A DNA stretch of 64,000 bases from positions 4,092,001 to 4,156,000 of the forward strand of contig NZ_AP028669.1 in NCBI RefSeq assembly GCF_041154485.1, in the 5' to 3' direction. A program made the position numbers and the translations under genes. Under the pieces are notes generated by a model. The model was not told where the DNA came from and ran no database searches. It saw only the letters and a program-made list of their open reading frames with translations. The DNA comes from Variovorax sp. V93 (GTDB lineage: Bacteria > Pseudomonadota > Gammaproteobacteria > Burkholderiales > Burkholderiaceae_C). The stretch's first letter is position 1. Each line of letters opens with the position of its first letter. Shown one piece after another: positions 8,746-50,107 of this stretch.

Positions 8746-8763
8746 AAAGGGCTTCCCGAGCCC
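8745..8763 (-). terminator. Small intrinsic terminator after the TetR gene
   Basis: On the minus strand a GGGCT-CGGGA-AGCCC stem-loop is followed directly by TTTT. It lies in the 28-bp gap between the converging GntR and TetR genes. The stem is short, so strength is uncertain; it would mainly serve the leftward TetR transcript. Confidence 0.45.
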
Positions 8764-8773
8764 CTGTTCCAGC

Positions 8774-9469: not shown

Positions 9470-9474
9470 GGTCG

Positions 9475-9599
9475 AAAAGATATCACATGAACTTTGAATA
9501 GCGCCTGCCTTCCAGGTCACAGTCCGGAATCTCACATTCGAATATCACTTGATATTTGAAAACGGCGAAGGTACATTCAAAACTCATTTGATTTTTGAA
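9475..9599. promoter_or_regulatory. Three related 24-bp operator-like sites in the TetR/SDR divergent promoter
   Basis: Site 1 (9537-9560) is an 11-bp-armed palindrome, TTCGAATATCA/TGATATTTGAA, with one mismatch. Site 2 (9576-9599) runs TTCAAAA to TTTTGAA and matches site 1 at 19 of 24 positions. Site 3 (9475-9498) matches site 1 at 16 of 24, keeping ATATCAC and TTTGAA. Sites 1 and 2 are 39 bp apart centre to centre. Site 2 ends 11 nt before the SDR start and site 3 begins 5 nt from the TetR start. TetR binding is inferred from position. Confidence 0.6.
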
Positions 9600-28136: not shown

Positions 28137-28212
28137 GGTTTTATGGTCCGCAGCCGTCTTCTTCGAATGGTCTCCCCTTCCTACAGTGGACCTCACTCAA
28201 GGAGACAGTCCC

Positions 28213-30006
<1,794 letters not shown>

Positions 30007-30022
30007 GCAAGGAGAAGCACAC

Positions 30023-30802: not shown

Positions 30803-30830
30803 AAGACAACTTCAAACCGGAAACAGAGAC

Positions 30831-31739
30831 ATGTCGCAATCGCAAAAAATCGGATTCATCGGCCTCGGCATCATGGGCGCGCCCATGGCGGGGCACCTGC
30901 TCGACGCCGGGCACCAGCTCTTCGTGAACACCCAGGGCAACACGCCCGAGCCCTTCATCTCGAAGGCCACCATCTGCGCCTCGGCGGCCGAGGTGGCGCG
31001 CCAGGCCGACGTGATCTTCATCATGGTGCCCGACACGCCCGACGTGGAGAAGGTGCTGTTCGGCGAGCCCGGCACGCAGGGCGTGGCCGAAGGGCTGAAG
31101 GATTCGCGCGGCAAGATCGTGGTGGACTGCAGCTCCATCGATCCGATAGCCACCAAGGGCTTCGCCAAGCGCATCATCGCGCTCGGCTGCGGCTACATCG
31201 ACGCGCCGGTCTCGGGCGGCGAAGTGGGCGCCAAGGCCGCGAGCCTCACCATCATGTGCGGCGGCGACGAAAGCACCTTCGGCCAGGTGCGGCCGCTGCT
31301 CGAGAAGATGGGCAAGAACGTCACGCTGGTGGGCAACGTGGGCGACGGCCAGGTCTGCAAGGTGGCCAACCAGATCATCGTGGCGCTCAACATCGCGGCC
31401 GTGGGCGAGGCGCTGCTGTTCGCGTCCAAGGCCGGTGCCGATCCGGCCAAGGTGCGCCAGGCGCTGATGGGCGGCTTCGCGAGCTCGCGCATCCTCGAGG
31501 TGCATGGCGAACGCATGATCAAGCGCACCTTCGCGCCGGGCTTCCGCATCTCGCTGCACCAGAAGGACCTGAACCTCGCGCTGCAGAGCGCGCGTTCGCT
31601 GGGCATGGCGCTGCCGCAGACCGCGGGCGCGGCGCAGCTCATGAATGCCTGCGCCGCACTGGGCCATGGCCAGCAGGACCACTCGGCGCTGGTGCGCGCG
31701 CTCGAGGCGCTCGCGCAGCACACGGTCGCCCCTGACTGA
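30831..31739 (+). CDS. glxR: Tartronate semialdehyde reductase
   Basis: A 302-residue beta-hydroxyacid dehydrogenase that reduces tartronate semialdehyde to D-glycerate with NAD(P)H. The Rossmann start is IGFIGLGIMGAPMAGHL, the substrate motif is DAPVSGGEVGA (about 124-134) and the catalytic lysine lies in KVANQIIVALNIAAVGEAL. It ends the gcl-hyi-glxR operon and converges on the next gene with a 3-bp gap. The three enzymes together feed glyoxylate from purine/ureide or glycolate breakdown into glycerate. Confidence 0.94.
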   Translation: MSQSQKIGFIGLGIMGAPMAGHLLDAGHQLFVNTQGNTPEPFISKATICASAAEVARQADVIFIMVPDTPDVEKVLFGEPGTQGVAEGLKDSRGKIVVDCSSIDPIATKGFAKRIIALGCGYIDAPVSGGEVGAKAASLTIMCGGDESTFGQVRPLLEKMGKNVTLVGNVGDGQVCKVANQIIVALNIAAVGEALLFASKAGADPAKVRQALMGGFASSRILEVHGERMIKRTFAPGFRISLHQKDLNLALQSARSLGMALPQTAGAAQLMNACAALGHGQQDHSALVRALEALAQHTVAPD

Positions 31740-35832: not shown

Positions 35833-36447
35833 ATGGCAGAACACGCCCTGGAACGCGGGAGCTTCTCCCGCCGGGTGCTCGATGCGTCCGACTTCGTGCT
35901 GCGCTGCGAGCGCCACCTGCTCTCGGCTCTGATGGGCCTGCTCATCGCGCTGGTGCTGCTGAACGTGGCCACGCGCTACGCCGGCGTGCCGATCTACTGG
36001 GTCGACGAAGCCTCGGTGTACTGCGTGGTGTGGCTCACCTTCATCGGCGCCTCGGCGATGACGCGGCTGCGGCTGGACTTTGCGGTGACGCTGCTCACCG
36101 ACAAGCTCGGCGAGAAGGCCGTGCGCATCGCCAAGGCCACCGCCTCCGGCGGCGTGCTGCTGCTGGGCTTCGCGCTGCTGGCGATGTGCTGGCTCTACAT
36201 GGATCCGCTGGGCATCGCGCGCTACGGTTTCGATGCCAAGGAGTACGCGGCCGAGTCCTTCAACTTTCTCTACACCGAGCGCACGCAGACGCTGAACTGG
36301 CCGACCTGGGCCATCCAGCTGATCCTGCCGGTGTTCTCGCTCACGCTCAGCCTGCATGCGCTGTCCAACCTCATCGAGGACCTCGGCCTGCAGCCCAGGC
36401 GCACGCACACCGAGTTCCACGTGACCAACGCTGACGCGGTGAACTGA
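35833..36447 (+). CDS. TRAP transporter small permease (DctQ-like)
   Basis: A 204-residue membrane protein with four predicted helices, including LLSALMGLLIALVLLNVATRY and the conserved WVDEASVYCVVWLTFIGAS. It is the small subunit of a TRAP (tripartite ATP-independent periplasmic) transporter. It is followed one base later by the large permease and then the binding protein, the order usual for such operons. The N-terminal 30 residues are hydrophilic and slightly longer than average. No obvious ribosome site precedes the ATG. Confidence 0.9.
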   Translation: MAEHALERGSFSRRVLDASDFVLRCERHLLSALMGLLIALVLLNVATRYAGVPIYWVDEASVYCVVWLTFIGASAMTRLRLDFAVTLLTDKLGEKAVRIAKATASGGVLLLGFALLAMCWLYMDPLGIARYGFDAKEYAAESFNFLYTERTQTLNWPTWAIQLILPVFSLTLSLHALSNLIEDLGLQPRRTHTEFHVTNADAVN

Positions 36448-36448
36448 C

Positions 36449-37714
36449 ATGCTGACCTCCCTCTTCTTCCTGGTGATCATGCTGGTCGGCGTGCCGATCG
36501 GCGCCTGCCTGTGCCTGGCGGGCATCGTCTACATCCTCAATTCCGGCGACACGGTGCTGTTCCAGTCGTTCCCGGTGCAGATGTTCGGCGGCGTCGACAG
36601 CTACAGCCTCATTGCGATTCCGCTGTTCATCCTGATCGGCGAGATCATGAACGGCGGCGGCATCACGAAGCGGCTGGTCGACCTCGCGCTGGCCTTCATC
36701 GGCTCGGTGAAGGGCGGGCTCGCCTACGTGAACATCCTGGCCAACATGCTGGTGTCGTCGATCATCGGCTCGGCCACCGCGCAGGTGGCCATCATGAGCC
36801 AGATCATGGTGCCCGAGATGGAGAAGCAGGGCTACGACAAGACCTTCGCGGCCGGCATCACGGTGTATGGCGGCATGCTGGGGCCGATCATTCCGCCCTC
36901 GGTGATGTTCGTGGTGTACAGCGTGCTCGCGCAGGTGGCGGTGGGCGACATGCTCATTGCCGGCATCATCCCCGGCGTGATCCTCACGGTGCTGTTCTTC
37001 ATCGTGATCGCGTGCATGGGCTTCTTCTACAACTACCCGCGCACCGAGAAGCGCACCCTCCGGCAGCGCCTGCACACGATGCTCACGGCCTGCCCGACGC
37101 TGCTGATCCCGATCGTGATCGTCGGCTCCATTCTGGGCGGCTTCGCCAACCCGACCGAGGCGGCCGCTGTGGGCGCGGTGGCCGCGGTGCTGGTGGGCCG
37201 CTACGTCACGAAGGAATTCCGCTTCGCGATGATTCCGCAGATCCTGCTGAAGTCGGCGATCTATTCGGCGGTGGTGCTGTTCCTGGTGGCCGCGGCGGCC
37301 GTGTTCTCGTGGCTGCTGATCTACGGCAAGGTGCCGCAGGCCACGGCCGCATGGATCCAGACCGTGGCCAGGGACCCGATCGCGTTCCTGCTGCTCGTGA
37401 ACCTGATCCTGCTGGTGATCGGCACCGTGATCGACGGCATTCCGGGGCTGATCATGACGGTGCCCATCCTCCTGCCCATCGCCACCGAGATCTACGGCAT
37501 CGACCCGCGCCACTTCGGCGTGGTGGTGGTGATCAACCTCGTGCTCGGGCTGATGACGCCGCCCGTGGGCCTGAGCTTCTTCGTGGCCTCCGCCGTGACC
37601 GGCGCCAAGCCCGGAAAGATGTTCATCGTCACCCTGCCCTTCTTCCTGATCTGCTGCGCCGCGCTGGTGCTGCTGTCGCTGTTCCCGAGCCTGTCGCTCG
37701 CGCTCATCAAGTAA
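36449..37714 (+). CDS. TRAP transporter large permease (DctM-like)
   Basis: A 421-residue permease with about 12 helices. DctM hallmarks are IPLFILIGEIMNGGGITKRLVDLA, GSATAQVAIMSQIMVPEMEKQGYDK (about 108-132), GGMLGPIIPPSVMFVVY and the C-terminal GLMTPPVGLSFFVASAVTG. It forms the sodium-driven translocation channel with the DctQ-like subunit. Its start is one base after the DctQ stop codon. The substrate is set by the binding protein downstream. Confidence 0.94.
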   Translation: MLTSLFFLVIMLVGVPIGACLCLAGIVYILNSGDTVLFQSFPVQMFGGVDSYSLIAIPLFILIGEIMNGGGITKRLVDLALAFIGSVKGGLAYVNILANMLVSSIIGSATAQVAIMSQIMVPEMEKQGYDKTFAAGITVYGGMLGPIIPPSVMFVVYSVLAQVAVGDMLIAGIIPGVILTVLFFIVIACMGFFYNYPRTEKRTLRQRLHTMLTACPTLLIPIVIVGSILGGFANPTEAAAVGAVAAVLVGRYVTKEFRFAMIPQILLKSAIYSAVVLFLVAAAAVFSWLLIYGKVPQATAAWIQTVARDPIAFLLLVNLILLVIGTVIDGIPGLIMTVPILLPIATEIYGIDPRHFGVVVVINLVLGLMTPPVGLSFFVASAVTGAKPGKMFIVTLPFFLICCAALVLLSLFPSLSLALIK

Positions 37715-37755
37715 GCGCCGTCGCCCTCCCTTTCCCTTCTCAACCGGAGCCTCGC

Positions 37756-38757
37756 ATGTCCCTCTCTCGCCGCAAATTCGTCGTCCAGGCCGCAGCCGGT
37801 ACCGCTGCCGCGTCGTCCGCTCTCTTTTGCACCGTGTCGCGCGCGGCGGCCGCCAAGGAATTCCGCCTCGGCCTCATCACGCCGGCCGGCCACTCGTGGA
37901 ATCGCGCCGCGGTGGGCTTTGGCGAAGCGCTCAAGAAGGCGACCGACGGCCGCCTGAGCGCCACGGTGTTCCATTCGGGCCAGCTGGGCAACGAGTCGGC
38001 GATGATGCAGCAGCTGCAGTCCGGCGCGCTGGACATGGGCTGGATCCAGGCCGCCGAACTCGGCTCGCGCGTGTCCAGCGTGGCGGCCATCAACGCGCCC
38101 TACCTCGTGCGCTCGACCACCAACGTGGCCTCGCTGGTGCGCACCCCCGCCGCGCTGAAGCTGCTCGACGTGCTGCCGCGCGAGACCGGCACCATCGGCC
38201 TGGGCTGGGGCATCACCGGCATGCGCGTGGTGTTCGCGACCAAGCCCATCGCCACGCCCACCGACCTCAAGGGCATGAAGCTGCGCATCAACCCGACGCC
38301 CGTATACCGCGACTTCTACCAGCTGCTGGGCGCCGCGCCCACGCCCATTCCGACGCCGGCCGTTTTCGACGCCATGTCGAACGGCCAGGTCGACGGGCTC
38401 GAAGCGGACATCGAGTTCTCGTGGAACCAGCGCTTCGACCGCGTCGCAAAAACAATGCTGCCGATGAATGCGCTCTTCATGCCCTTCGCGCCGCTGGTGT
38501 CGGGCCGCATCTGGAAAACGCTCGACGGCAAGGACAAGGCGCTCATCACCGACCTCGTCAAGCAGTCGCTCGATGCGCAGATCAAGGACATCGTGACCAC
38601 CGAGCTCGGCCTGATCGACAAGTTCAAGGCCAGCGGCATCACGATCAAGAGCGATGCCGGCTACAACCCCGCGCCGGTCATCGCGGAGTTCGACAAGATC
38701 TGGCTGCCCAAGGCGCCGCAGATCGCGGAGCTGCGCAAGATCGGCGCGACGCTCTGA
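37756..38757 (+). CDS. TRAP transporter substrate-binding protein (DctP-like, Tat signal)
   Basis: A 333-residue periplasmic binding protein with a twin-arginine leader (SRRKFVVQAAAG, cleavage near AAA at about 33). The mature part shows the DctP pattern FHSGQLGNESAMMQQLQSGALDM and, near 168-178, MKLRINPTPVYRDF with the arginine that usually binds a carboxylate. Ligands of the family are mainly organic acids (C4-dicarboxylates, keto acids, sialic acid). The ligand here is not evident. It is last of the dctQ-dctM-dctP operon. Confidence 0.92.
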   Translation: MSLSRRKFVVQAAAGTAAASSALFCTVSRAAAAKEFRLGLITPAGHSWNRAAVGFGEALKKATDGRLSATVFHSGQLGNESAMMQQLQSGALDMGWIQAAELGSRVSSVAAINAPYLVRSTTNVASLVRTPAALKLLDVLPRETGTIGLGWGITGMRVVFATKPIATPTDLKGMKLRINPTPVYRDFYQLLGAAPTPIPTPAVFDAMSNGQVDGLEADIEFSWNQRFDRVAKTMLPMNALFMPFAPLVSGRIWKTLDGKDKALITDLVKQSLDAQIKDIVTTELGLIDKFKASGITIKSDAGYNPAPVIAEFDKIWLPKAPQIAELRKIGATL

Positions 38758-38845
38758 ACCAGGCCGGTGCGCCGCCGCCCCATCGCGCACCACAACAGTT
38801 CCACGGAAAGGTTCGCACCAATCGCGTGCGGGCACCGTTTTTGCT

Positions 38846-38863
38846 TGAATGCAGAAGCATTCA
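38846..38863. promoter_or_regulatory. Perfect palindrome before the ABC/deaminase operon
   Basis: TGAATGCAGAAGCATTCA is a perfect 7+4+7 inverted repeat ending 17 nt before the binding-protein start. Its right part, AGAAGCATTCA, matches AGAAGCGTTCA (10 of 11) in the divergent promoter of the paralogous module at 47577-47587. It is a probable shared operator, or an mRNA hairpin near the start. Confidence 0.5.
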
Positions 38864-38880
38864 CCTCCAACGGATCCTGC

Positions 38881-39915
38881 ATGAACAAGCGCCAACTGCT
38901 CCAGTCCTTCCTCGCCGCCTCGGCCCTGAGCTTCGGCCTCACCCCGGCCTTTGCCCAAGCCCCGACGCCGATCAAGTTCCAGCTCGACTGGCGCTTCGAA
39001 GGACCGGCCGCGCTGTTCCTGCATCCCGCCGCCAAGGGCTACTTCAAGGCCGCGGGCCTCGACGTGAGCATCGACGCGGGCAACGGCTCGGGCGGCACGG
39101 TCACGCGCGTGGCCTCGGGCGCCTACGACATGGGCTTTGCCGACCTGGCCGCGCTGATGGAATTCCACGCCAACAACCCCGACAGCCCGAACAAGCCGGT
39201 CGCGGTGATGATGGTCTACAACAACACGCCGGCCTCGGTCATGGCGCTCAAGAAGAGCGGCATCGCCAAGCCGGGCGACCTGGCCGGCAAGAAGCTCGGC
39301 GCGCCGGTGTTCGACGCGGGCCGCCGCGCGTTCCCGATCTTTGCCAAGGCCAACAACATCGGCGCGGTCAACTGGACCGCCATGGACCCGACGCTGCGCG
39401 AAACCATGCTGATGCGCGGCGACATCGACGCCATCACCGGCTTCACCTTCACCTCGCTGCTGAACCTGGAGGCGCGTGGCGCCAAGGCCGCCGACATCGT
39501 CGTGCTGCCCTACCCCGACTACGGCGTGAAGCTCTACGGCAACGTGATCATCGCCTCGCCCAAGCTCATCAAGGAGAACCCGGAAGCGGTGAAGAAATTC
39601 CTCTCGGCCTTTGCCAAGGGCGCGAAGGAAGTCATCGCCAATCCTGCCGTGGCCATCGAATCGGTCAAGGCGCGCGACGGCATCATCGACAGCAAGCTCG
39701 AGACCCGCCGCCTTCAGCTGGCCATCGACACCGTGATCAACAGCGCCGACGCGCGCAGCGAAGGCTTCGGCACGGTGAACGCCGGCCGCATGTCGCTGAT
39801 GGCCTCGCAGGTGTCGGACGCGTTCAACACCAAGACCCGCGTGAGCCCCGACGCCGTGTGGACCGCCGCGCTGCTGCCGCCCGCGGCCGAACTCAACGGC
39901 GTCCTGCGCAAGTGA
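38881..39915 (+). CDS. ABC transporter substrate-binding protein (NMT1/THI5-like)
   Basis: A 344-residue exported binding protein: signal peptide ending FGLTPAFAQA (about 26), then the NMT1/THI5-like fold with IKFQLDWRFEGPAALFLHPAAKGYFKAAGLDVSI split over about 31-65, SGGTVTRVASGAYDMGFAD and KLGAPVFDAGRRAFP. Proteins of this family bind pyrimidines, thiamine precursors, sulfonates or riboflavin. It leads a binding protein-ATPase-permease-deaminase operon. The terminal deaminase suggests an amino-heterocycle such as a cytosine- or hydroxymethylpyrimidine-like compound. Confidence 0.9.
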   Translation: MNKRQLLQSFLAASALSFGLTPAFAQAPTPIKFQLDWRFEGPAALFLHPAAKGYFKAAGLDVSIDAGNGSGGTVTRVASGAYDMGFADLAALMEFHANNPDSPNKPVAVMMVYNNTPASVMALKKSGIAKPGDLAGKKLGAPVFDAGRRAFPIFAKANNIGAVNWTAMDPTLRETMLMRGDIDAITGFTFTSLLNLEARGAKAADIVVLPYPDYGVKLYGNVIIASPKLIKENPEAVKKFLSAFAKGAKEVIANPAVAIESVKARDGIIDSKLETRRLQLAIDTVINSADARSEGFGTVNAGRMSLMASQVSDAFNTKTRVSPDAVWTAALLPPAAELNGVLRK

Positions 39916-40775
39916 TGCAGGCGGACGCATCGGGCGCGGCCGCTGCTCCCTTCGTCGACTTCCAGGACGTCTGGCTCGCCTACAACGAGGAGCTGCTGCG
40001 CGCCAACCACTTCGCGGTCGAGGCCATCGACCTGAAGGTCAAGCGCGGCGAATTCATCGCCATCGTCGGCCCCTCGGGCTGCGGCAAGTCGACCTTCATG
40101 AAGCTCACCACGGGCCTGAAGATGCCGTCGATGGGCAAGATCCGCATCGACGGCCAACCCGTGACCGGGCCGCTCAAGATCTCGGGCATGGCGTTCCAGG
40201 CGCCTTCGCTGCTGCCGTGGCGCACCACGGTCGACAACGTGCTGCTGCCGCTCGAGATCGTCGAGCCTTATCGCTCGAGCTTCAAGGCCAAACGCAAGGA
40301 ATACGTCGAGCGGGCGCGCAAGCTGCTGCAGAAGGTCGGCCTTGCGGGCTATGAAGACAAGTTTCCATGGCAGCTCTCGGGCGGCATGCAGCAGCGCGCG
40401 AGCATCTGCCGCGCGCTCATCCACGAGCCCAAGATGCTGCTGCTCGACGAGCCCTTCGGCGCGCTCGATGCCTTCACGCGCGAGGAGCTCTGGTGCATCC
40501 TGCGCGACCTCTGGACCGAGCAGCAGTTCAACGTCATCCTGGTGACGCACGACCTGCGCGAATCGGTATTCCTGGCCGACACGGTGTACGTGATGAGCAA
40601 GAGCCCGGGCCGCTTCGTGGTCAAGCGCGAGATCGAGCTGCCGCGCCCGCGCGAGCTGGAGCTCACCTACACCAAGGAGTTCACCGACATCGTGCTGGAG
40701 CTGCGCGGCCACATCGGCGCCATCCGCAACACGGGCATCAGCGCGGCGCAGACGGCCGCCGCGGTGTCCCACTGA
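39915..40775 (+). CDS. ABC transporter ATP-binding protein (SsuB/TauB/ThiZ-type)
   Basis: A 286-residue ATPase. Walker A GPSGCGKST is at 52-60, the Q-loop in MAFQAPSLLPWRTT, the signature LSGGMQQR, Walker B MLLLDEPFGALD and the H-loop LVTHDLRE. The start overlaps the previous stop (TGATG). It energises uptake with the permease that follows. The subfamily is shared by sulfonate, nitrate and pyrimidine importers, so it does not reveal the substrate by itself. Confidence 0.94.
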   Translation: MQADASGAAAAPFVDFQDVWLAYNEELLRANHFAVEAIDLKVKRGEFIAIVGPSGCGKSTFMKLTTGLKMPSMGKIRIDGQPVTGPLKISGMAFQAPSLLPWRTTVDNVLLPLEIVEPYRSSFKAKRKEYVERARKLLQKVGLAGYEDKFPWQLSGGMQQRASICRALIHEPKMLLLDEPFGALDAFTREELWCILRDLWTEQQFNVILVTHDLRESVFLADTVYVMSKSPGRFVVKREIELPRPRELELTYTKEFTDIVLELRGHIGAIRNTGISAAQTAAAVSH

Positions 40776-40784
40776 AGGCGCGCC

Positions 40785-41555
40785 ATGAAGAACACCAAGC
40801 AAATCGAACGCTGGTCGCCCTGGCTGCTGCTGATTGCGGTGATCCTGCTGTGGCAGGTGATCTGCGCGGGCTTCGGCGTGTCGGACTTCATCTTTCCGAG
40901 CCCGCTGCGCATCTGGAACCAGTTCTGGGAGTTCAAGGAAATCATCGCGGGCCATGCGTGGCGCACCTTCTGGGTCACGATGGCGGGCTTCGGCCTGGCC
41001 ATTGTGGTGGGCGTGCTGCTGGGCTTCGTGATCGGCAGTTCGCGCATCGCGTATGCGGCGATCTATCCGCTCATGACGGCGTTCAACGCGCTGCCCAAGG
41101 CGGCCTTCGTGCCGATCCTGGTGGTGTGGTTCGGCATCGGCGTGGGACCGGCGATCCTCACGGCCTTTCTGATCAGCTTCTTCCCGATCATGGTCAACAT
41201 CGCGACCGGCCTGGCCACGCTGGAGCCCGAGCTCGAAGACGTGCTGCGCGTGCTCGGCGCCAAGCGCTGGGACGTGCTCATGAAGATCGGCCTGCCGCGC
41301 TCCATGCCCTACTTCTTCGGCTCGCTCAAGGTGGCGATCACGCTGGCCTTCGTCGGCACCACGGTGAGCGAGATGACCGCCGCCAACGAAGGCATCGGCT
41401 ACCTGCTCATTTCAGCCGGCTCGGCCATGCAGATGGGCCTGGCCTTCGCGGGGCTGATGGTGGTGGGCGCGATGGCCATGCTGATGTACGAGCTCTTCAG
41501 CGTGATCGAGAAGCACACCACGGGCTGGGCGCACCGCGGCTCCCAGAACCAGTGA
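40785..41555 (+). CDS. ABC transporter permease (SsuC/ThiX-type)
   Basis: A 256-residue inner-membrane permease with six helices. The EAA loop that docks with the ATPase is TLEPELEDVLRVLGAKRWDVLMKIGLPRSMPY (about 147-178). The start lies 9 bp after the ATPase stop. It is the only permease for the NMT1-type binding proteins in the window. The second, solo binding protein (47690-48718) might also use it. Confidence 0.93.
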   Translation: MKNTKQIERWSPWLLLIAVILLWQVICAGFGVSDFIFPSPLRIWNQFWEFKEIIAGHAWRTFWVTMAGFGLAIVVGVLLGFVIGSSRIAYAAIYPLMTAFNALPKAAFVPILVVWFGIGVGPAILTAFLISFFPIMVNIATGLATLEPELEDVLRVLGAKRWDVLMKIGLPRSMPYFFGSLKVAITLAFVGTTVSEMTAANEGIGYLLISAGSAMQMGLAFAGLMVVGAMAMLMYELFSVIEKHTTGWAHRGSQNQ

Positions 41556-41573
41556 TTCGCGCATGATCCACGG

Positions 41574-42056
41574 ATGACCCACGAACAGATCATCCGCGCG
41601 CTTCGCCGCGCCAACGAGGTCGCCCGCCGCGCCATGGCGATGGGCCGCCATCCCTTCGGCGCGGTGCTCGTGGCGCCCGACGGCGAGACGATCCTGGCCG
41701 AGCAGGGCAACATCGACACGGTGAACCACGCCGAAGCCACGCTGGCGCGCCATGCGGCGCAGAACTGGCCGGCGGAGTACCTGTGGCAATGCACGCTGGT
41801 CACGACCTTCGAGCCCTGCGCGATGTGCGCGGGCACCAGCTACTGGGCGCACATCGGCCGCATCGTCTACGGCGCGGAAGAATCGGCCCTGCTCGCACTC
41901 ACGGGCGACCACCCCGAGAACCCCACGCTGAGCCTGCCCTGCCGCGAAGTGTTCGCGCGCGGGCAGAAGAAGATCGAGGTGATCGGGCCGGTCGCCGAGG
42001 TGGCGGAAGAAATGATCGCCACGCACCGCGGCTTCTGGGAAGCGCGCGGGCATTGA
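41574..42056 (+). CDS. Cytosine/guanine deaminase-family nucleoside deaminase
   Basis: A 160-residue zinc hydrolase of the CDA/guanine-deaminase superfamily. Zinc and proton-shuttle residues are H52-A-E54 and C82-AM-C85 (FEPCAMCAG). These enzymes replace an exocyclic amino group by oxygen, releasing ammonia. It ends the ABC operon, 18 bp behind the permease. It shares LPCREVFARG and IEVIGP segments with the deaminase at 48715-49245, so the two are paralogues. The natural substrate is not evident (guanine, cytosine, hydroxymethylpyrimidine and others are possible). Confidence 0.88.
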   Translation: MTHEQIIRALRRANEVARRAMAMGRHPFGAVLVAPDGETILAEQGNIDTVNHAEATLARHAAQNWPAEYLWQCTLVTTFEPCAMCAGTSYWAHIGRIVYGAEESALLALTGDHPENPTLSLPCREVFARGQKKIEVIGPVAEVAEEMIATHRGFWEARGH

Positions 42057-42077
42057 AGCCGAGTCCGCCCGCAATGA

Positions 42078-42569
42078 TCAGGGACGGTAGACGGCGGGAT
42101 GCGACGCATCATGGTCGATCCCATAGAGACTCGTGCTCGCCTGTCCGTGAAGCAGCACCGGACGAACCCTTCGCCCCTGCAACAGCGTGCGCAGCGCATC
42201 GGCCATCGACTCGCCGCAAAGCCAGAACGCATCGTGGACCAGGCTGGCGCCGAACCACCGTCCCTTGCCGTCGATCAAGAGCAAGCTGTAGCCTTGGCCG
42301 ACCTCCGCCACCGTGACGAGGTGCTCGCCGACGGTCGCTTCGTAGAGTTCGTGGCCCGAGTCTTCGAAGGGCTGCGACATGAAGTCGATGTCGGACGTTG
42401 GGCATTCCTCGCCTGCGCCCGGATTGAAAACCTTCAGACCCAGAAAGCTGGCCAGGATGCCTGCCGCAGGATGCCCTGCGGGAACGCCCTCGGGGACCGG
42501 CACCACCCTGCCGGGATACCAGCCAGCAGCAAGGAAGAAGGCTTGGAGGTCGGCTGGAACTTCGGGCAT
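42078..42569 (-). CDS. SUKH-3-like immunity-family protein
   Basis: A 163-residue protein. The start DLQAFFLAAGWYPGR, then GHPAAGILASFLGLKVFNPG, and the later GEHLVTVAEVGQGYSLLLIDGKGRWFG match the layout of SUKH-3 domains, which are mostly immunity proteins against polymorphic or contact-dependent toxins. ATG at 42569 is preferred over a TTG three codons upstream. No toxin gene adjoins it. It converges on the deaminase gene. It could be an orphan or bystander immunity gene; the assignment is from remembered motif patterns. Confidence 0.6.
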   Translation of the reverse strand: MPEVPADLQAFFLAAGWYPGRVVPVPEGVPAGHPAAGILASFLGLKVFNPGAGEECPTSDIDFMSQPFEDSGHELYEATVGEHLVTVAEVGQGYSLLLIDGKGRWFGASLVHDAFWLCGESMADALRTLLQGRRVRPVLLHGQASTSLYGIDHDASHPAVYRP

Positions 42570-42626
42570 GGGGAGCAAGCAGATGGCCCTCGTGTATTGC
42601 GCGTAGCCAAAAAAAGCTCCGCGGCG

Positions 42627-42851
42627 CTAGGCCAGCAACAGCGTGGCCTCGTCGCGCCAGTAGGCCACGGCGGCCAGCCAGCCCTCCCACACGCAGCCGT
42701 TGCAGCCGCGCCCGCAGCAGGTGGTGGGCTCGGGCGGCGGCACGCGCAAGGCGAGCCGCTGCGCAGCGGCTTCCAACTGAACGGCCGCAATCAGCGCCTG
42801 TGCGCTGGCAAGGTCGACTGGAACGGGCAGGTCTTTGTCTGCAAACGACAT
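42627..42851 (-). CDS. Oxidoreductase-like N-terminal-domain small protein
   Basis: A 74-residue protein with the cysteine-rich segment PEPTTCCGRGCNGCVWEGW (about 40-58), the signature of the small Oxidored-like family, in which four closely spaced cysteines probably bind a metal. The function is not established. It lies between the SUKH-like gene and lpxO on the same strand. Confidence 0.75.
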   Translation of the reverse strand: MSFADKDLPVPVDLASAQALIAAVQLEAAAQRLALRVPPPEPTTCCGRGCNGCVWEGWLAAVAYWRDEATLLLA

Positions 42852-42897
42852 GGGCTGGCAGCGGCGCCAAGGCGCCGCGCGGCATCGGGCTTGCGCC

Positions 42898-43794
42898 TTA
42901 CCAGAAGATCCAGAGCGCGAGGCCGCCGAAGATCGACCATTTCACGAGGTAGTACACCCGCTTGTCCCAGGCCTTGAGGCGCTTGCCGATCACGCGGATC
43001 TGGTAGATGTACTTGAACGCACGGTTGATGCCGCCAGTCTTGTCGCCGGCATCATTGGGCGAGGCGGCGGCGGCCAGCAGGTTCTTCGCGAACCAGCGGT
43101 TCACGGCGCTGGCCCAGCGGTACTTCAGCGGGCGCTCGATGTCGCAGAACAGGATCACGCGGTCCTTGTCCGTCGTGTTCTCGGCGTAGTGGATGTAGGT
43201 TTCGTCGAACACCACGGCCTCGCCGTCGCGCCAGTGGTAGCGCTGGCCGTCCACGTCGATGTAGCAGCCCTCCACGCCCGGCGTCCACAGGCCCAGGTGG
43301 TAGCGCAGCGAACCGGCGAAGGGGTCGCGGTGGCGCACCAGGCGGCTGCCCGGTGGCAGCTCGGCGAACATGGCCGCCTTGATGGTGCCGATGCCCTTGA
43401 GCAGTTCGGTGGTGCGCGGGCACAGGATGGCGGCCGAGGGATGCGCCTCGTCATACCACTTCAGGTAGAAGCGCTTCCAGCCGCTTTTGAAGAAGGAGTT
43501 GAAGCCCACGTCGTTGAACTGGCTCGAGGCCTTGATGCTGCCGCCGTTGCGCATGGCGAGCGCCTCTTCGCGGATGACCTGCCAGTTCTCCTCGAGCACG
43601 CGCATTTCGGGAAACTGCGCGGGCGACAGGTACGGCGTGCTCGGCACCTTCGAGAAGATGTACATGAAGGCGTTCAGCGGCGCGAGGAAGGTCGAGTGGT
43701 CGGACAGCTGCCTGAAGAAGCGGTGCCGGACCTGGCCGCGGAAGTGAACGTAGAGCGCGCTGAGCGCGAAGATGGCGAGAATGACCCACTTCAT
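42898..43794 (-). CDS. lpxO: Lipid A hydroxylase LpxO (aspartyl/asparaginyl beta-hydroxylase family)
   Basis: A 298-residue Fe(II)/2-oxoglutarate-dependent dioxygenase. An N-terminal membrane helix (WVILAIFALSALYVHF) anchors it and a C-terminal hydrophobic segment (YYLVKWSIFGGLALWIFW) adds a second. The metal motif is H155-x-D157 (RHRDPFAGSLRYHLGL) with distal H202 (DETYIHYAENTT). LpxO hydroxylates the secondary acyl chain of lipid A at the inner membrane. Length and topology match. It is a single gene. Confidence 0.9.
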   Translation of the reverse strand: MKWVILAIFALSALYVHFRGQVRHRFFRQLSDHSTFLAPLNAFMYIFSKVPSTPYLSPAQFPEMRVLEENWQVIREEALAMRNGGSIKASSQFNDVGFNSFFKSGWKRFYLKWYDEAHPSAAILCPRTTELLKGIGTIKAAMFAELPPGSRLVRHRDPFAGSLRYHLGLWTPGVEGCYIDVDGQRYHWRDGEAVVFDETYIHYAENTTDKDRVILFCDIERPLKYRWASAVNRWFAKNLLAAAASPNDAGDKTGGINRAFKYIYQIRVIGKRLKAWDKRVYYLVKWSIFGGLALWIFW

Positions 43795-43934
43795 TGGTGA
43801 AAGTGTCCTGTAGACGGCGCGGGGGTAGCCGGGTAGTGTAAATCGTTGCCCCAAACCTGGGCTGACCACGCCCTTTGCCCCCGTCCGGGACATGCCGGCC
43901 CCGCAGGCCGCGCCCTGCGCGGGTGGGCGCCGTC

Positions 43935-44333
43935 TCAGGCCCAGCCGGTCTCGATCTCGGTCTTCACCTCGGTCATGAGCCGGTGCACCGGGCACTTGCC
44001 GGCCACGCGCAGCAGCTCGTCGCGCTGCGCCTCGGTCAGCTCGCCGGTCACGCGCAGGCTCGACTTCAGCCGGTAGACGCCCTTGCGCTCCTCGCTGTCG
44101 TCGCGGTCGACGATCACCTCGATGTCTTCCACCGCCATGCCCTTGCGGCGCGCGTAGATCAGCACGGTGAGCGCCTTGCAGGCGGCCAGCGACGCGTCGT
44201 ACAGGTCGTGCGGCTCCGGCCCCGCATCGCTGCCGCCGCCGGCCGGCGAGGCATCGATGGGAATCTCGTGGTTGCGGATCTTGAGAATGTGGCGCGTGCC
44301 CGTGATGCCGTCGCGCCGGACCGAGATGCTCAT
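43935..44333 (-). CDS. OsmC-family protein
   Basis: A 132-residue OsmC/Ohr-superfamily protein with the two redox cysteines, C52 (SLAACKALT) and C114 (AGKCPVHRLM). The glycine-rich insert AGGGSDAGPEPHDLYDASLA before the first cysteine is typical of the OsmC branch. Such proteins reduce organic or lipid hydroperoxides with thiol donors. The 140 bp beyond its stop hold a GC-rich imperfect hairpin without a T-tract. Confidence 0.9.
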   Translation of the reverse strand: MSISVRRDGITGTRHILKIRNHEIPIDASPAGGGSDAGPEPHDLYDASLAACKALTVLIYARRKGMAVEDIEVIVDRDDSEERKGVYRLKSSLRVTGELTEAQRDELLRVAGKCPVHRLMTEVKTEIETGWA

Positions 44334-44388
44334 GCCGATGTCCTTGTGGGGTGTGGATGCCGGGCGCGATGTTAGCCCGCCACCCGCT

Positions 44389-44856
44389 TCAGCGGTCGAC
44401 CGCGAGCATCAGCGTTTCCTTGATCTCCTCCATCACCACGTAGCTGTGCGATTCCGCCGCCACGGGCAGCTTCTTGAGGATGTCGCCCAGGAGGTGCCGG
44501 TACTCGCTCATGCCGCTCAGGCGTGCCTTCACAAGGTAGTCGAAGCTGCCCGAGACCAGATGGCACTCGAGCACCTCGGGCATGTGCAGCAGTTCCTTGC
44601 GCACCTTGTCGAACACCTCGCCCGACTTGGCCGAGAGCTTGATCTCCACGAACACCAGCAGCGTCTTGCCCAGCGCCTCGGGCGACACATGCGCGTGGTA
44701 GCCGCTGATGACGCCCTCGCGCTCCATGCGCTTCACGCGCTCCGCGCAGGGCGATGCCGACAGGCCGATGCGCTCGGCCAGTTCGGTCATGGAGATGCGG
44801 CCCTGGCGCTGCAGCAGGTCGAGGATCTTGCGGTCGATGCGGTCGAGTTCGGGCAT
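44389..44856 (-). CDS. Lrp/AsnC-family transcriptional regulator
   Basis: A 155-residue Lrp-type regulator. The HTH (about 1-60; DRIDRKILDLLQRQGRISMTELAERIGLSASPCAERVKRME in pieces) is followed by the RAM ligand domain (about 70-150). It is divergent from dadA, and two similar 15-bp sites lie between. By analogy with DadR/Lrp systems it most likely activates or represses dadA in response to alanine, leucine or another amino acid. Confidence 0.92.
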   Translation of the reverse strand: MPELDRIDRKILDLLQRQGRISMTELAERIGLSASPCAERVKRMEREGVISGYHAHVSPEALGKTLLVFVEIKLSAKSGEVFDKVRKELLHMPEVLECHLVSGSFDYLVKARLSGMSEYRHLLGDILKKLPVAAESHSYVVMEEIKETLMLAVDR

Positions 44857-44890
44857 TTCACTCCGGGGCTGGCAATTGGCTTGCTATCTG

Positions 44891-44935
44891 CAGTGAATTT
44901 CACTGTCAATCGTCAAAAAACAATGAAATCCACTG
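44891..44935. promoter_or_regulatory. Two Lrp-type sites between the Lrp gene and dadA
   Basis: CAGTGAATTTCACTG (44891-44905, perfect 7+1+7 palindrome) and CAATGAAATCCACTG (44921-44935) share 12 of 15 bases and are centred 30 bp apart, close to three helical turns. A half-site ATTCCACTC follows at 44951-44959. This phased arrangement is typical of Lrp octamer binding. Confidence 0.6.
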
Positions 44936-44985
44936 CATTGTGCACTTTAGATTCCACTCATCCACCTTCATTCGCGTAAATACCC

Positions 44986-46287
44986 ATGAAAGTCATCGTT
45001 CTCGGCGGCGGCGTGATCGGCACCACCACGGCCTACTACCTCGCGCGCTCCGGCGCCGACGTGACGCTGCTCGACCGGCAGACCGGCCCTGCCGAGGAAA
45101 CCAGCTTCGGCAACGCCGGGCAGGTGTCGCCGGGCTACTCGACGCCATGGGCGGCGCCCGGCATTCCGCTGAAGGCCATCAAGTGGATGTTCCAGAAGCA
45201 CGCGCCGCTGTCGATCCGCCCCGACGGCACGCTGTTCCAGCTGCGCTGGATGGCCGCCATGCTGCGCAACTGCTCGCCCGAACGCTACGCGGTCAACAAG
45301 GAACGCATGATGCGCGTGGCCGAATACAGCCGCGGCTGCCTGCAGCAGCTGCGCGCCGAAACCGGCCTGCGGTACGAGCACCGCACCGGCGGCACACTGC
45401 AGCTGTTCCGCACCCAGGCGCAGCTCGACGCGGTGCAGCGCGACATCGCGGTGCTCGAGGAATGCGGCGTGCCCTACGAGCTGCTCGACCGCGATGCGCT
45501 CGCGCGCGTCGAACCCGCGCTCGCCGGCGCGCGCGACCGGCTCGCGGGCGGCCTGCGCCTGCCGAACGACGAGACCGGCGACTGCCATTTGTTCACCCGC
45601 GGCCTGGCTGACATCGCCCGCGGCCTGGGCGTGGATTTCCGCTTCGGCCAGTCGGTCGAAGGCCTCGAGATGGCGGGCGACCGCATCACGGGCGTTCGAA
45701 CCAGTGCCGGCAAGATCCTCACGGCCGACCGCTACGTGATGGCCTTCGGCAGCTACTCGCGCGCCGCCATCGCATCGCTGGGGCTGGACATTCCGGTCTA
45801 CCCCGTCAAGGGCTACTCGCTCACCGTGCCGCTGGTCGACGAATCGCTGGCACCGCAATCGACCGTGCTCGACGAAACCTACAAGGTGGCCGTCACGCGC
45901 TTCGACAACCGCATCCGCGTGGGCGGCATGGCCGAGCTCGGCGGCTTCGACCTGCGGCTGAACCCGCACCGCCGCGCCACGCTCGAGAAAGTGGTGAGCG
46001 ACCTGTTCCCGGGCGGCGACCTGCCGCGCGCCACCTTCTGGACCGGCCTGCGCCCGATGACGCCGGACAGCACGCCCATCGTCGGCGCCACGCGCTATGC
46101 GAACCTGTTCCTCAACACCGGCCACGGCACGCTCGGCTGGACCATGGCCTGCGGCTCGGGCAAGCTCATCTCCGACCTCGTGACCGGACAGCGACCGGAG
46201 ATCCGCACCGATGGCCTGGCGATGGACCGCTACGCGTCCGGCTCATCGCACGCGGCGCACCCGAACCCGGCCACGGCTCACGCCTGA
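44986..46287 (+). CDS. dadA: D-amino acid dehydrogenase
   Basis: A 433-residue FAD enzyme of the DadA family. The N-terminal dinucleotide motif is [19 protein letters not shown], followed by [20 protein letters not shown]. The C-terminal FAD contact is [14 protein letters not shown]. It deaminates D-amino acids (mainly D-alanine) to keto acids at the membrane, passing electrons to the respiratory chain. No alanine racemase is adjacent. Control by the divergent Lrp regulator is likely. Confidence 0.93.
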
Positions 46288-46299
46288 GGCAGCGGCCGC

Positions 46300-47382
46300 T
46301 CAGGCAGCCTTCGCGATCGGAATCGTTTCGCTGGCCATGCCGCGGTAGACCTCGGCCTCGCCGTGCTTCGCCAGCAGCTGCATCAGGTGCTTGCGGATCA
46401 GCATGCCGGGCCGGTCCGACTCCATCGAATACTCCACGCCGCGCCGGCGCGTGTCGACCAAGGCATCGGGGTCGGTCGATTCGAGGATGTCCTTGTCCTC
46501 GCGCGTGACCGCCTCGTCGAAGTCGATCAGCATCTGTGCGGTGCAGTCGGCCTCGGTGTCGTTGCGGAACAGCCATTGGCACAGTTGCATGCGCCCGTCG
46601 TCGATGGGCGTGAAGCAGTTGATGATGATGTGTCGCACGCCGCTCGGGTATTCGATGTCGAGCCGGCGCGAGAACGGCAGGAAGTAGGCGTTGCGCATGT
46701 GGCGCGTGGTGATCGGCTCGGTCACGCCGCTGATGGCGTGGAACTTCACCGGGTTGGCCGCCTCGATCACCGTCTCGGCATAGAAGCCTGAATCGTTCTC
46801 GACCAGTTCGTACTTGCTCGGCTTCGGGCTCGCGGCCACGCCGAAGGTGGCGCGGTGCACGAAGCTGAAATGCGAGTTGTCGAACGAATTCTCGAGCGCG
46901 CGCATCGGGCTGGTCTGCCACTCTTCGTAGAACTGGAAGATGGTGCGGTAGCCCGGGTCGCCGAACTCCGGGATGGCGGGAATGTCGGCGATGGGCTCTT
47001 CCAGCGCCACCCATGCGTAGCCGTAGCGCGCGGTGCAGCGGTAGGCGGTGGTGCGGTACTCCGGCGAGATCTTGCGGTCGGCCTCGTACTGCGGAATGCG
47101 GATCACCTGGCCGCTGCGGTCGTAGGTCCAGCCGTGATAGCCGCACTGGATCGCGCCCTGCCCGCAGGCCTGGCCTTCGCCATCGACGCACCAGCCTTTC
47201 GACAGCTTCGCGGTGCGGTGGCAGCAGCGGTCGCGCAATGCGGCAGGCTGGCCGCCGGCATCGAGGAAGAGAACGATGTCTTCGCCCAGCAGTCTGAAGG
47301 GCCTCGGGCCGCTGGCCAGCTCGGTGAGCGGCATGACGGCATGCCAGAACTTGCGGAAGACGGGTTGTCGGGTGACGAGCAT
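46300..47382 (-). CDS. Rieske [2Fe-2S] oxygenase, alpha subunit type
   Basis: A 360-residue Rieske non-haem iron oxygenase. The cluster ligands are C53-x-H55 and C80-xx-H83, separated by 24 residues, longer than the usual spacing, with an insert rich in Gly/Cys (GEGQACGQG). The mononuclear iron site is D168-x2-H171-x4-H176 (ENSFDNSHFSFVH). ATG at 47382 follows an AGGAGTCC-like sequence. Its size is that of phthalate-, vanillate- or N-demethylase-type oxygenases. No reductase is adjacent. Its promoter mirrors that of the divergent binding-protein gene, suggesting a shared substrate. Confidence 0.88.
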   Translation of the reverse strand: MLVTRQPVFRKFWHAVMPLTELASGPRPFRLLGEDIVLFLDAGGQPAALRDRCCHRTAKLSKGWCVDGEGQACGQGAIQCGYHGWTYDRSGQVIRIPQYEADRKISPEYRTTAYRCTARYGYAWVALEEPIADIPAIPEFGDPGYRTIFQFYEEWQTSPMRALENSFDNSHFSFVHRATFGVAASPKPSKYELVENDSGFYAETVIEAANPVKFHAISGVTEPITTRHMRNAYFLPFSRRLDIEYPSGVRHIIINCFTPIDDGRMQLCQWLFRNDTEADCTAQMLIDFDEAVTREDKDILESTDPDALVDTRRRGVEYSMESDRPGMLIRKHLMQLLAKHGEAEVYRGMASETIPIAKAA

Positions 47383-47427
47383 GCGTGGACTCCTTCTGTT
47401 GTTGCGCGTGGGTACGAACGAACCTGA

Positions 47428-47632
47428 AAGAGCAATTTCCTGCCGCGAGGGCTGAACGCTTCTACTCTGCGCCACCTGCCATGCAAATTGCGCGCCTGCA
47501 TTGTGGCGCAGGTCGGCCGCGCCTCCAAGCACGCGGCCCGCCCTGGCATGGCTCGTGCATCGGCTCCCGCAAGAGTAGAAGCGTTCAGCAGCGCACGCAC
47601 CACCGTTGTGCGCCCGCCCGGAAATTGCTCTT
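47428..47632. promoter_or_regulatory. Mirror-image divergent promoter with two nested perfect inverted repeats
   Basis: This 307-bp gene-free gap holds an 18-bp element AGAGTAGAAGCGTTCAGC at 47572-47589 whose exact complement is at 47451-47468. It also holds a 13-bp element GGAAATTGCTCTT at 47620-47632 whose complement is at 47428-47440. Each divergent gene therefore sees the same two elements in the same order, 10 bp apart on the Rieske side and 30 bp apart on the binding-protein side. A further repeat, CTGCGCCAC/GTGGCGCAG, occupies 47467-47511. This strongly suggests joint control of both genes. Confidence 0.65.
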
Positions 47633-47689
47633 GAAGTGCCTTCCGCCGTGTGCGGAGGGATTCAAGACCCGAGGATTCCGAGGCCCCAC

Positions 47690-48718
47690 ATGCAACGTCG
47701 ATTCTTTCTTGCGGCCAGTGCCGCCACCCTTGCCGCTCCCGCCGTCTTCGCCCAGGGCGGCGGCAAGCCGACCCCGCTCAAGTTCACGCTCGACTTCCGC
47801 ATCAACGGCCAGACCGCGCCCTTCTTCCTGGCGCACAGCAAGGGCTACTACAGGGACGAAGGCCTCGACGTGAGCATCGACACCGGCGCCGGTTCGGTCG
47901 CTTCCATCACGCGCATCGCGAGCGGCGTCTACCAGATGGGCCTGGGCGACATCAGCTCGCTGGTCGAGTTCAATGCGCAGAACCCCGGCACGCCGATGGT
48001 GCAGGCCGTGTACCAGTACTACAACCGCGCGCCCTTCGTGATCATCGGCCGCAAGGACCGCGGCGTCACGGCCGAGTTCAAGAGCCTCGCGGGCAAGAAG
48101 GTGGCGGCCGCGGCCGTCGAATCGACCCGCCGCGCGTGGCCGATGGTGGCGCGCAAGCAGGGCATGCGCAGCGACGCCTTCCAGTGGCAGACCACCGACT
48201 TCAGCGCGCGCGACAACGTGATGGTGCGCGGCGACGTCGACGCCGCCACCTACTTTCATGATTCCGCCATTTCGCTCTTCGCGCGCATGAAGCAGGAAGA
48301 ACTGTCGGTGCTCAAATATGCGGACGCGGGCGTCAACCTGTATGGCAACGCCATTCTCGCGAGCAGCAACATGATCGCGCAGAACCCCAGGGTGGTTGCG
48401 GCCTTCCTGCGCGCCACCAACCGCGCCATCGTCGAGACCTTTGCCAACCCCGCGCCCGGCATCGCGGCCATGCGCCAGCGCGAACCCATCCTGGACGAAA
48501 GGATGGAGCTTGAACGCTGGAGTGTCACGGCGCAATATGTGGGTGCCGCGGATACGCGCAGCCATGGCCTGGGCGACATCAGGAAGCTCACGCTCGAGCA
48601 GCAGGTCGACGAGGTCGCCGACGTATTCGGCCTCAAGGTCAAGCCCTCGTCCGACGCCATCTTCAACACCTCGATGCTGCCATCGCGCAGCGAACGCATG
48701 ATTTCCACCAAGGCATGA
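47690..48718 (+). CDS. Solo ABC substrate-binding protein (NMT1/THI5-like)
   Basis: A 342-residue exported binding protein with an RR-containing leader (MQRRFFLAASAATLAAPAVFA). The mature start LKFTLDFRINGQTAPFFLAHSKGYYRDEGLDVSID (about 31-65, in pieces) closely parallels that of the binding protein at 38881-39915, so they are paralogues. No ATPase or permease is adjacent. The stop overlaps the start of a deaminase gene. It may hand its ligand to the ABC permease 7 kb away. Its promoter mirrors that of the Rieske oxygenase. Confidence 0.88.
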   Translation: MQRRFFLAASAATLAAPAVFAQGGGKPTPLKFTLDFRINGQTAPFFLAHSKGYYRDEGLDVSIDTGAGSVASITRIASGVYQMGLGDISSLVEFNAQNPGTPMVQAVYQYYNRAPFVIIGRKDRGVTAEFKSLAGKKVAAAAVESTRRAWPMVARKQGMRSDAFQWQTTDFSARDNVMVRGDVDAATYFHDSAISLFARMKQEELSVLKYADAGVNLYGNAILASSNMIAQNPRVVAAFLRATNRAIVETFANPAPGIAAMRQREPILDERMELERWSVTAQYVGAADTRSHGLGDIRKLTLEQQVDEVADVFGLKVKPSSDAIFNTSMLPSRSERMISTKA

Positions 48719-49245
48719 ACTCCAGCAACATCAACCTCCATTCAACCCTCCCCGAAGAAGCCACGCTCGACGAACGCGACGGACGCTACCTGCGCAAGGC
48801 CATCGTCTGGTCGCATGCGGCGCGCCGCCGCGGCAACCGGCCCTTCGGCTCGGTCATCGTCTCGGCCGCCGGCGAAGTGCTCGCCGAAGCCGGCAACAGC
48901 AACACCGAGACCGGCGACTGCACCGCGCATGCGGAAGTGAACGCGCTGCGCGCACTCGCGGGGCGCGGCCTCACGCGCGAAGAGCTCGCCGGCGCCACCA
49001 TCTACGCGTCGGGCGAGCCCTGCGTGATGTGCGCGGGCGCCATCTTCTGGTCGAACATCGGCCGCGTGGTGTTCGGCATCGACGCCGAGCGGCTGCGCGT
49101 GTTCCGCGGCGAACGGCAGGACCAGCGTGATGCGGAGCTGTCGTGCCGCGACGTGTTCCGCGCCTCGCCGCATCCGATCGAATGCATCGGACCCGCGCTG
49201 CTCGACGAGGCCAGTGCTGCACACGACGGCGCCTGGGCCAGCTAG
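48715..49245 (+). CDS. Cytosine/guanine deaminase-family nucleoside deaminase
   Basis: A 176-residue zinc deaminase: H72-A-E74 (TAHAEVNAL) and C103-VM-C106 (GEPCVMCAGAIFWSNIGRVVFG). The first 25 residues are an extra leader compared with the paralogue at 41574-42056, with which it shares the LSCRDVFR and IECIGP segments. The start is fixed by a 4-base overlap with the binding-protein stop, so uptake and deamination are tightly coupled. Substrate unknown; an aminated pyrimidine or purine-like ring is expected. Confidence 0.87.
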   Translation: MNSSNINLHSTLPEEATLDERDGRYLRKAIVWSHAARRRGNRPFGSVIVSAAGEVLAEAGNSNTETGDCTAHAEVNALRALAGRGLTREELAGATIYASGEPCVMCAGAIFWSNIGRVVFGIDAERLRVFRGERQDQRDAELSCRDVFRASPHPIECIGPALLDEASAAHDGAWAS

Positions 49246-49276: not shown

Positions 49277-50107
49277 ATGTCCTGGCACGCCCATCTTCAT
49301 CTCGACTACCGACAGGAAGCCGCCCGCAGCGTCGCGCGCTTTCGCCATGACGGGCCGCTGCGCATCCTGCAGAGCCTCTATCCCGAGGGCGATGCGATCT
49401 GCCACAACGTGCTGGTGCATCCGCCGGGCGGACTGGTGGGCGGCGACACGCTGGACATCGACATCGAGGCAGCCGGCGCAAGCCATGGGCTCATCACCAC
49501 GCCCGGCGCCTCGCGCTTCTACCGCTCCGAAGGCGAACTCGCGCTGCAGCGCACGCGCATCCGGCTTGCCAAGGGCGCGCGGCTCGAGTGGCTGCCGCTG
49601 GAGGCCATCTGCTACAGCGGCTGCCGCGCAGAGAACCGGCTCACCATCGAGGCCGAGCCCGGCGCCGAGATGATCGGCTGGGACGTGACGGCCCTCGGCT
49701 TGCCGCATGCCAATCAGCCATTCGAACGCGGCACCTACCTGCAGCACATCGAAGTGCCCGGCGTCTGGCTGGAGCGCGGGCGCATCGACGCGGCGGACCA
49801 GCGGCTGCTGCAGAGCCCGCTGGGCTTCGGCGGGCATCGCTGCATCGCGTCGCTGTTCTTCGTGTCGGGCTCGCCGGCCGCGCGGGCGCGGCGCGAGGCG
49901 CTGCTTGCGCTCGCACGCACCGCCATCGATGCGCACGGGCTGCAGCAGAGCGCCGGCGCAACCAGCCCGCATGCGGAGATCGTCGTGCTGCGCGTACTGG
50001 CGCCCGTGGTGGAGCCCGCGATGCAGCTGCTGCGGCAGGTGTGGCAGGCATGGCGCGCGGAGCTGTGGCAGTTGCCGGCGAGCTCGCCGCGCATCTGGGC
50101 GACCTAG
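49277..50107 (+). CDS. ureD: Urease accessory protein UreD (UreH)
   Basis: A 276-residue UreD of full length, recognised by the stretch HNVLVHPPGGLVGGDTLDIDI (about 43-63), TTPGASRFYRSEGE, LEWLPLEAICYSG and GRIDAADQRLLQSPLGFGGHRC. UreD is part of the UreDFG complex that delivers nickel to urease. Here it stands without ureABC or ureEFG: 31 bp behind the deaminase gene and meeting a leftward LysR gene. It may be transcribed with the binding-protein/deaminase pair. The structural genes must lie elsewhere if it is functional. Confidence 0.87.
   Translation: MSWHAHLHLDYRQEAARSVARFRHDGPLRILQSLYPEGDAICHNVLVHPPGGLVGGDTLDIDIEAAGASHGLITTPGASRFYRSEGELALQRTRIRLAKGARLEWLPLEAICYSGCRAENRLTIEAEPGAEMIGWDVTALGLPHANQPFERGTYLQHIEVPGVWLERGRIDAADQRLLQSPLGFGGHRCIASLFFVSGSPAARARREALLALARTAIDAHGLQQSAGATSPHAEIVVLRVLAPVVEPAMQLLRQVWQAWRAELWQLPASSPRIWAT

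Follow-up and report, generated by a model that had tools for sequence, protein, structure and literature searches.

A stretch of 64,000 nucleotides from Variovorax sp. V93 (NCBI RefSeq assembly GCF_041154485.1, contig NZ_AP028669.1, positions 4,092,001 to 4,156,000 of the forward strand; hereafter the window) carries two modules that pair a binding protein with a zinc deaminase. Module A has its own ATP-binding cassette (ABC) core, and module B, 5.6 kb away, consists of the orphan binding-protein gene sbpB and the deaminase gene deamB. An 11-base motif, AGAAGCRTTCA, is found near both. At module B, the copies of the motif are the cores of two divergent xanthine riboswitches (Rfam family RF03054), a class formerly known as the NMT1 motif RNA. 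The locus is very probably a purine uptake and conversion regulon under these twin riboswitches. A known metabolite sensor replaces what had been a guessed regulon and points to chemistry that leads from purines to xanthine or urate. It would assign this chemistry to genes that are otherwise seen only as sulfonate-type transport, a TadA-like deaminase, and a ring-hydroxylating oxygenase. The two aptamers and their conservation, the order of the genes, and the linkage of modules A and B were computed here, while the ligand and the connection to purine oxidation come from published work.

The three exact copies of the 11-mer lie where the initial annotation had placed them, and they are the only ones in the whole 6.74 Mb genome (a reversed control pattern gave two). 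Shuffled versions of the window reached three matches in 11 of 100 cases with one mismatch permitted, a lenient comparison given that the real three are exact. The two copies at module B share 18 bases, AGAGTAGAAGCGTTCAGC, followed by a second box, GGAAATTGCTCTT. Each belongs to an RF03054 aptamer scoring above the Rfam gathering score for the family (the 36-bit cut-off of Table 1), and these two are the only matches above cut-off of any Rfam family in the window. One aptamer stands in the leader of sbpB–deamB. The mirrored copy is owned by a gene absent from the initial annotation, a Rieske non-haem iron oxygenase that runs divergently from module B.

Table 1. Features of the two modules and of the twin riboswitches, in window coordinates
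Feature	Position	Strand	Evidence or remark
Xanthine riboswitch aptamer RF03054, leader of sbpB–deamB	47568-47635	+	54.2 bits, cut-off 36, E 2.8e-09
Xanthine riboswitch aptamer RF03054, leader of the Rieske gene	47425-47472	-	48.3 bits, cut-off 36, E 1.2e-07
Proposed expression platform of the Rieske leader	47383-47442	-	P1 3' strand and tail GCUCUUUC can pair with Shine-Dalgarno GAAGGAG; computed only
sbpB, NMT1/THI5-type binding protein without its own ABC core	47690-48718	+	PF09084 124.7 bits (cut-off 20.5)
deamB, zinc deaminase, CDA/TadA superfamily	48715-49245	+	PF00383 77.3 bits
ureD, urease accessory protein, 31 bases 3' of deamB	49277-50107	+	PF01774 161.1 bits
Rieske non-haem iron oxygenase, Rieske and VanA_C domains	46300-47382	-	PF00355 62.8 bits, PF19112 70.2 bits (scored on the longer frame 46300-47532; start placed at 47382)
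Module A 11-mer copy, probably chance	38853-38863	+	No RF03054 match; poorly kept at sbpA loci
sbpA, NMT1/THI5-type binding protein	38881-39915	+	PF09084 127.5 bits (cut-off 20.5)
Module A ABC ATPase	39915-40775	+	PF00005 111.5 bits
Module A ABC permease	40785-41555	+	PF00528 86.6 bits
deamA, zinc deaminase	41574-42056	+	PF00383 61.5 bits

The 14-base core of module B is found in 67 of 399 genomes of the family and in 39 of 141 genera, with none for a reversed control. With stricter filters, the Rfam model applied to 300 genomes of the order gave 10 above the cut-off and 14 at E <= 0.001, the Variovorax genome included. The loci compared here number 97, made up of 57 named loci and 40 further stretches taken from 40 of the 67 core-bearing genomes (37 of the 39 genera). 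A 15-base form of the module B core, GAGTAGAAGCGTTCA, is found in all 57 named loci; 54 have two copies and three (L011, L055, and L059) have a single one. With one base left free, the 97 loci hold 175 copies of the core, and the 3' half of the aptamer is present in 173; the other two (L159 and L162) have no Rfam match either.

Among the 173 aptamer-like copies, 162 stand before a Rieske enzyme (65), a 2OG-Fe(II) oxygenase (23), or sbpB (74), and the rest are nearest to other NMT1 binding proteins (7), deamB (1), or no assigned gene (3). The 2OG-Fe(II) oxygenase (PF03171; family F1 with 23 members, for example in L057, L132, and L137) takes the divergent position of the unrelated Rieske enzyme in many genera. 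The gene sbpB adjoins deamB in 57/57 named loci and in 22 of the 24 other loci that hold it. In L133, a Rieske enzyme and two riboswitches share a single run with a binding protein, ABC parts, and an amidohydrolase that scores above the PRK12393 cut-off and matches 8-oxoguanine deaminase more weakly. The Variovorax genome also contains a third riboswitch (60.9 bits), in a region at about 4.875 Mb of C1 (L172:7276-9476). The gene it leads encodes an NMT1 binding protein (L172 7471-8481), and 4 bases of this gene are shared with the gene of a 2OG-Fe(II) oxygenase (8478-9476).

The initial annotation had taken the 11-mer for one promoter element common to modules A and B, a reading that is not confirmed. 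The module B copies are riboswitches. A search for RF03054 across 38600-39100, around that copy, gave no match at E <= 10. The exact 10-base core was found 5' of sbpA in 2 of the 21 named loci where the sbpA start is covered (L004 and L007) and in none of 29 loci from other genera (L062-L090). With no RF03054 match and so little conservation among relatives, this copy is probably, and most simply, a chance match. An operator for a protein regulator common to both modules would account for there being just three exact copies genome-wide, each near these genes, but the module B copies are structured RNA aptamers that exceed the Rfam cut-off. Given this, and the lack of conservation at module A, the operator was rejected as highly improbable. 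Readings as a sigma-54 site or a palindromic operator were judged by eye only and were abandoned after the second box appeared.

A member of the RNA class binds xanthine and, less tightly, urate, according to the main text of PMC7373994. The module B leaders probably sense the same two molecules, with the ligand taken from the published class. Since the motif is a xanthine riboswitch core, the uptake, deaminase, and oxygenase genes next to it most likely act on purines. In the proposed scheme there would be two divergent mRNAs, one for the Rieske oxygenase and the other for sbpB, deamB, and probably ureD. At the start of each, a riboswitch would sense xanthine or urate and regulate translation. 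The most likely role of the orphan SbpB protein is to hand a purine over to the module A ABC core, and the deaminase and the oxygenase would turn purines into xanthine or urate, the very molecules sensed by the RNA. The sharing of one transcript by ureD and deamB is putative, as is the direction of switching at each gene.

The initial annotation had modules A and B as one system in which two binding proteins share one permease, and this idea is partly supported, unlike the common motif. The claimed homology of both protein pairs is confirmed, with sbpA and sbpB 40% identical (132/334) and deamA and deamB 37% identical (58/158). In four loci (L052, L053, L054, and L137), deamB is followed directly by sbpA, the ATPase, and the permease, on the same strand and behind a riboswitch. 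The first three of these are two from C. testosteroni and one from a Comamonas metagenome-assembled genome; L137 is perhaps from Comamonas too and is not counted as a second genus. Across 99 genomes (G001-G099), an sbpA orthologue (at least 66% identity) is found in 58 and the core in 15, and all 15 core-bearing genomes have the sbpA orthologue (P = 0.00014, with the genomes sharing ancestry). This suggests that A and B are one system.

Because of the runs in the four loci and the 15/15 nesting, SbpB may well use the ABC core of module A. Having several binding proteins served by one ABC core is a familiar arrangement, for example HisJ/LAO with HisQMP. The likeness extends to paralogous binding proteins with a single ATPase/permease set, and in the present case the sharing is proposed from gene order and co-occurrence only. 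An alternative has A and B as separate modules, in which SbpB would partner a different ABC core or act as a sensor, and their nearness would reflect only a shared purine neighbourhood. It would suit the lack of a riboswitch at module A in this genome (38600-39100) and the much wider occurrence of module A than of the core. It would also suit the genome's third riboswitch, which likewise stands before a binding-protein gene whose listed neighbours include no ABC genes. The nesting of the core within sbpA-bearing genomes and the riboswitch-led runs argue against separate modules, which are judged rather unlikely, and for the single system.

The two points about module A just given also weigh against the purine regulon as a whole, and two others join them. 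A standard guanine deaminase and a standard xanthine dehydrogenase are already present in the genome, about 58 kb and about 28 kb 5' of the window, respectively, so guanine and hypoxanthine need not be substrates. Their presence weakens the simplest guess, in which deamB and the Rieske enzyme would only make xanthine from guanine and hypoxanthine. In addition, sbpA and sbpB fall under the curated cut-offs of the named transporter families tried (at most 50.8 against 163.5 bits for NCBIfam TIGR01728, aliphatic sulfonate, and 34.8 against 304.25 bits for TIGR01729, taurine). Purines leading to xanthine or urate are the likely substrates, and modified purines are possible ones. The amino-substituted heterocycles suggested by the initial annotation fit loosely, as purines.

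The wider window resembles a purine breakdown region. A xanthine permease lies at 12073-13563, and genes for glyoxylate carboligase, hydroxypyruvate isomerase, and tartronate semialdehyde reductase are found at 28186-31739. As purine genes close to the locus, these and the guanine deaminase and xanthine dehydrogenase 5' of the window also speak for the regulon.

The direction of switching was approached through the short leaders of the oxygenase genes. From 64 leaders that are not 5' of a binding protein and have at most 60 bases from GCUC to the start, 21 nonredundant ones were obtained, and 19 oxygenase leaders were left after an odd GTG case and the deamB leader (both from L168) were dropped. 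In these 19, the 3' strand of P1 with its tail pairs with the Shine-Dalgarno sequence at -11.74 kcal/mol, compared with -9.28 kcal/mol for shuffled partners (0/50000 shuffles), and the 10 from outside the named Variovorax set gave 32/50000. The variable tail alone gave 715 and 98 of 50000 shuffles for the 19 and the 10 leaders. With the deamB leader included, the counts were 0/50000 for 20 leaders and 3/50000 for 11. Controls on the 20 leaders gave 6176/20000 for codons 2-7 and 16111/20000 for an aptamer segment, and codons 2-7 gave 1207/20000 on the 11; related sequences inflate all the shuffle tests, those on binding-protein leaders included. Variant helices include CUCUUUC/GAAGGAG, CUCUUGAUA/UAUCAGGAG, and CUCUUCGG/CCGAAGGAG.

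When P1 is forced to form, the predicted openness of the Shine-Dalgarno site goes up in 16 of the 19 oxygenase leaders and down in three, and the L168 deamB leader is flat. In L004, which among the named loci has the copy closest to the Rieske leader of the window, openness changes from 0.00 to 0.52. Since forced P1 opens the site, an ON switch is predicted on the oxygenase side, where P1 would take up the strand that otherwise hides the ribosome-binding site. On the binding-protein/deaminase side, the alternative pairing seems to lie partly 5' of the ribosome-binding site. For a set of 31 binding-protein leaders, pairing of the same strand with a segment lying 15-34 bases 5' of the start is stronger than in shuffles (6/20000). 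The twin riboswitches could then give opposite outputs, with rising xanthine turning the oxygenase ON and the binding-protein/deaminase side OFF or leaving it neutral. If so, a single metabolite would switch the cell over from taking up purines to oxidising them, and the OFF rule published for the whole class would apply to just one of the two sides.

Opposite outputs are nevertheless doubtful. In the same set of 31, the strand also pairs with the leaders' own Shine-Dalgarno region better than shuffles do (64/20000), which lowered the probability assigned to this outcome; another set of 28 binding-protein leaders has no such pairing excess (3382/20000). At z 0.14, the Rieske leader in the window has no exceptional stability, a point against an ON switch. 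A class-wide ON reading was tried and is not supported over 61 nonredundant leaders (22 up, 14 down, P = 0.11), and the binding-protein leaders taken alone show 5 up and 11 down of 28.

It is fairly probable that both riboswitches are OFF switches, as published for the class, and that direction is not determined by the covarying helix on the oxygenase side. A binding-dead mutant of a Hydrogenophaga intermedia leader was expressed above wild type in E. coli (PMC7373994), as expected of an OFF switch, although the reporter text of that paper describes no ligand titration. The absence of a clear trend among the 61 leaders fits as well, and rival folds are more stable than those with P1 forced by 0 to 10 kcal/mol, as computed by a program that ignores the ligand and tertiary contacts. 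On the other side stand the covariation of the P1 3' strand and tail with the Shine-Dalgarno sequence and the predicted opening upon P1 formation, both in the short oxygenase leaders. The prediction makes it testable whether a xanthine riboswitch can be an ON switch in some leaders.

The initial annotation knew of no described system with this layout, but a near-identical locus is published. In Hydrogenophaga intermedia S1, Yu and Breaker (2020, PMC7373994) describe a pair of oppositely oriented NMT1-motif RNAs together with pcbC, tadA, and two NMT1 genes. In the main text of that report, the RNA class is placed upstream of dioxygenase and NMT1 genes and, in rare cases, of tadA-like genes. The RNA family, the opposed pair, the NMT1 genes, a TadA-like deaminase, and an oxygenase gene are common to both loci. 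The Variovorax locus differs in that its divergent gene encodes a Rieske oxygenase where H. intermedia has pcbC, in that ureD follows the deaminase, in that module A with its own deaminase and no riboswitch lies nearby, and in that the oxygenase-side platform predicts ON. The riboswitch, the gene set, and the divergent layout are already known. The covariation of the oxygenase-side P1 strand with the ribosome-binding site, which underlies the ON prediction, and the position of ureD behind the operon are apparently new. Neither an ON platform nor a place for ureD in the regulon was found stated in the literature surveyed, which lay mostly outside subscription papers and the supplement of PMC7373994, and the main text of that paper never uses the word urease.

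The purine oxidation genes hpxDE of Klebsiella, named in PMC7373994, offer a second comparison. They share with the present locus a Rieske-type oxygenase tied to purine oxidation. They differ in that no hpxE-like reductase was noticed beside the Rieske gene, where no search aimed at hpxE was made. HpxD was considered as an identity for the Rieske enzyme and no assignment resulted; the best 120 of 2366 proteins are near relatives named ring-hydroxylating oxygenases.

The proteins of the two modules give broader matches. Profile matches bear out the whole module A gene set of the initial annotation (binding protein, ATPase, permease, and deaminase), and the 4-base overlap it described between sbpB and deamB is present (48715-48718). 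Neither deaminase reaches TadA (NF008113, curated cut-off 150 bits), with deamA at 52.1 bits and deamB at 71.7 bits. The best solved relatives of deamB span several activities: a CMP/dCMP-type deaminase (70.7 bits), TadA variants (60.6), guanosine deaminase (56.6), and guanine deaminase (53.2).

The ureD gene, another that the initial annotation did not mention, points to a possible connection of purine sensing with the maturation of urease. The copy behind deamB is the sole ureD match within the genome. The two genes are on the same strand and less than 300 bp apart in 38/57 named loci and 6/40 others. A deaminase–urease cluster was considered and rejected; the urease alpha gene lies about 264 kb away from ureD, and none was found in the 57 named loci within at most 10 kb on each side of sbpB.

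Just 5' of module A, at 35833-38757, three genes resemble a TRAP transporter, as judged by eye. Between the modules, at 44389-46287, lie a D-amino acid dehydrogenase (NF001933, above cut-off) and a divergent gene for an Lrp-like regulator, a pair not seen at that place in many loci from other genera. In three loci of one genus (L129, L130, and L131), the riboswitch region adjoins a cytosine-deaminase-like amidohydrolase, a creatininase-like protein (the latter by eye), and a TetR regulator with a YcdC/RutR-type C-terminal domain.

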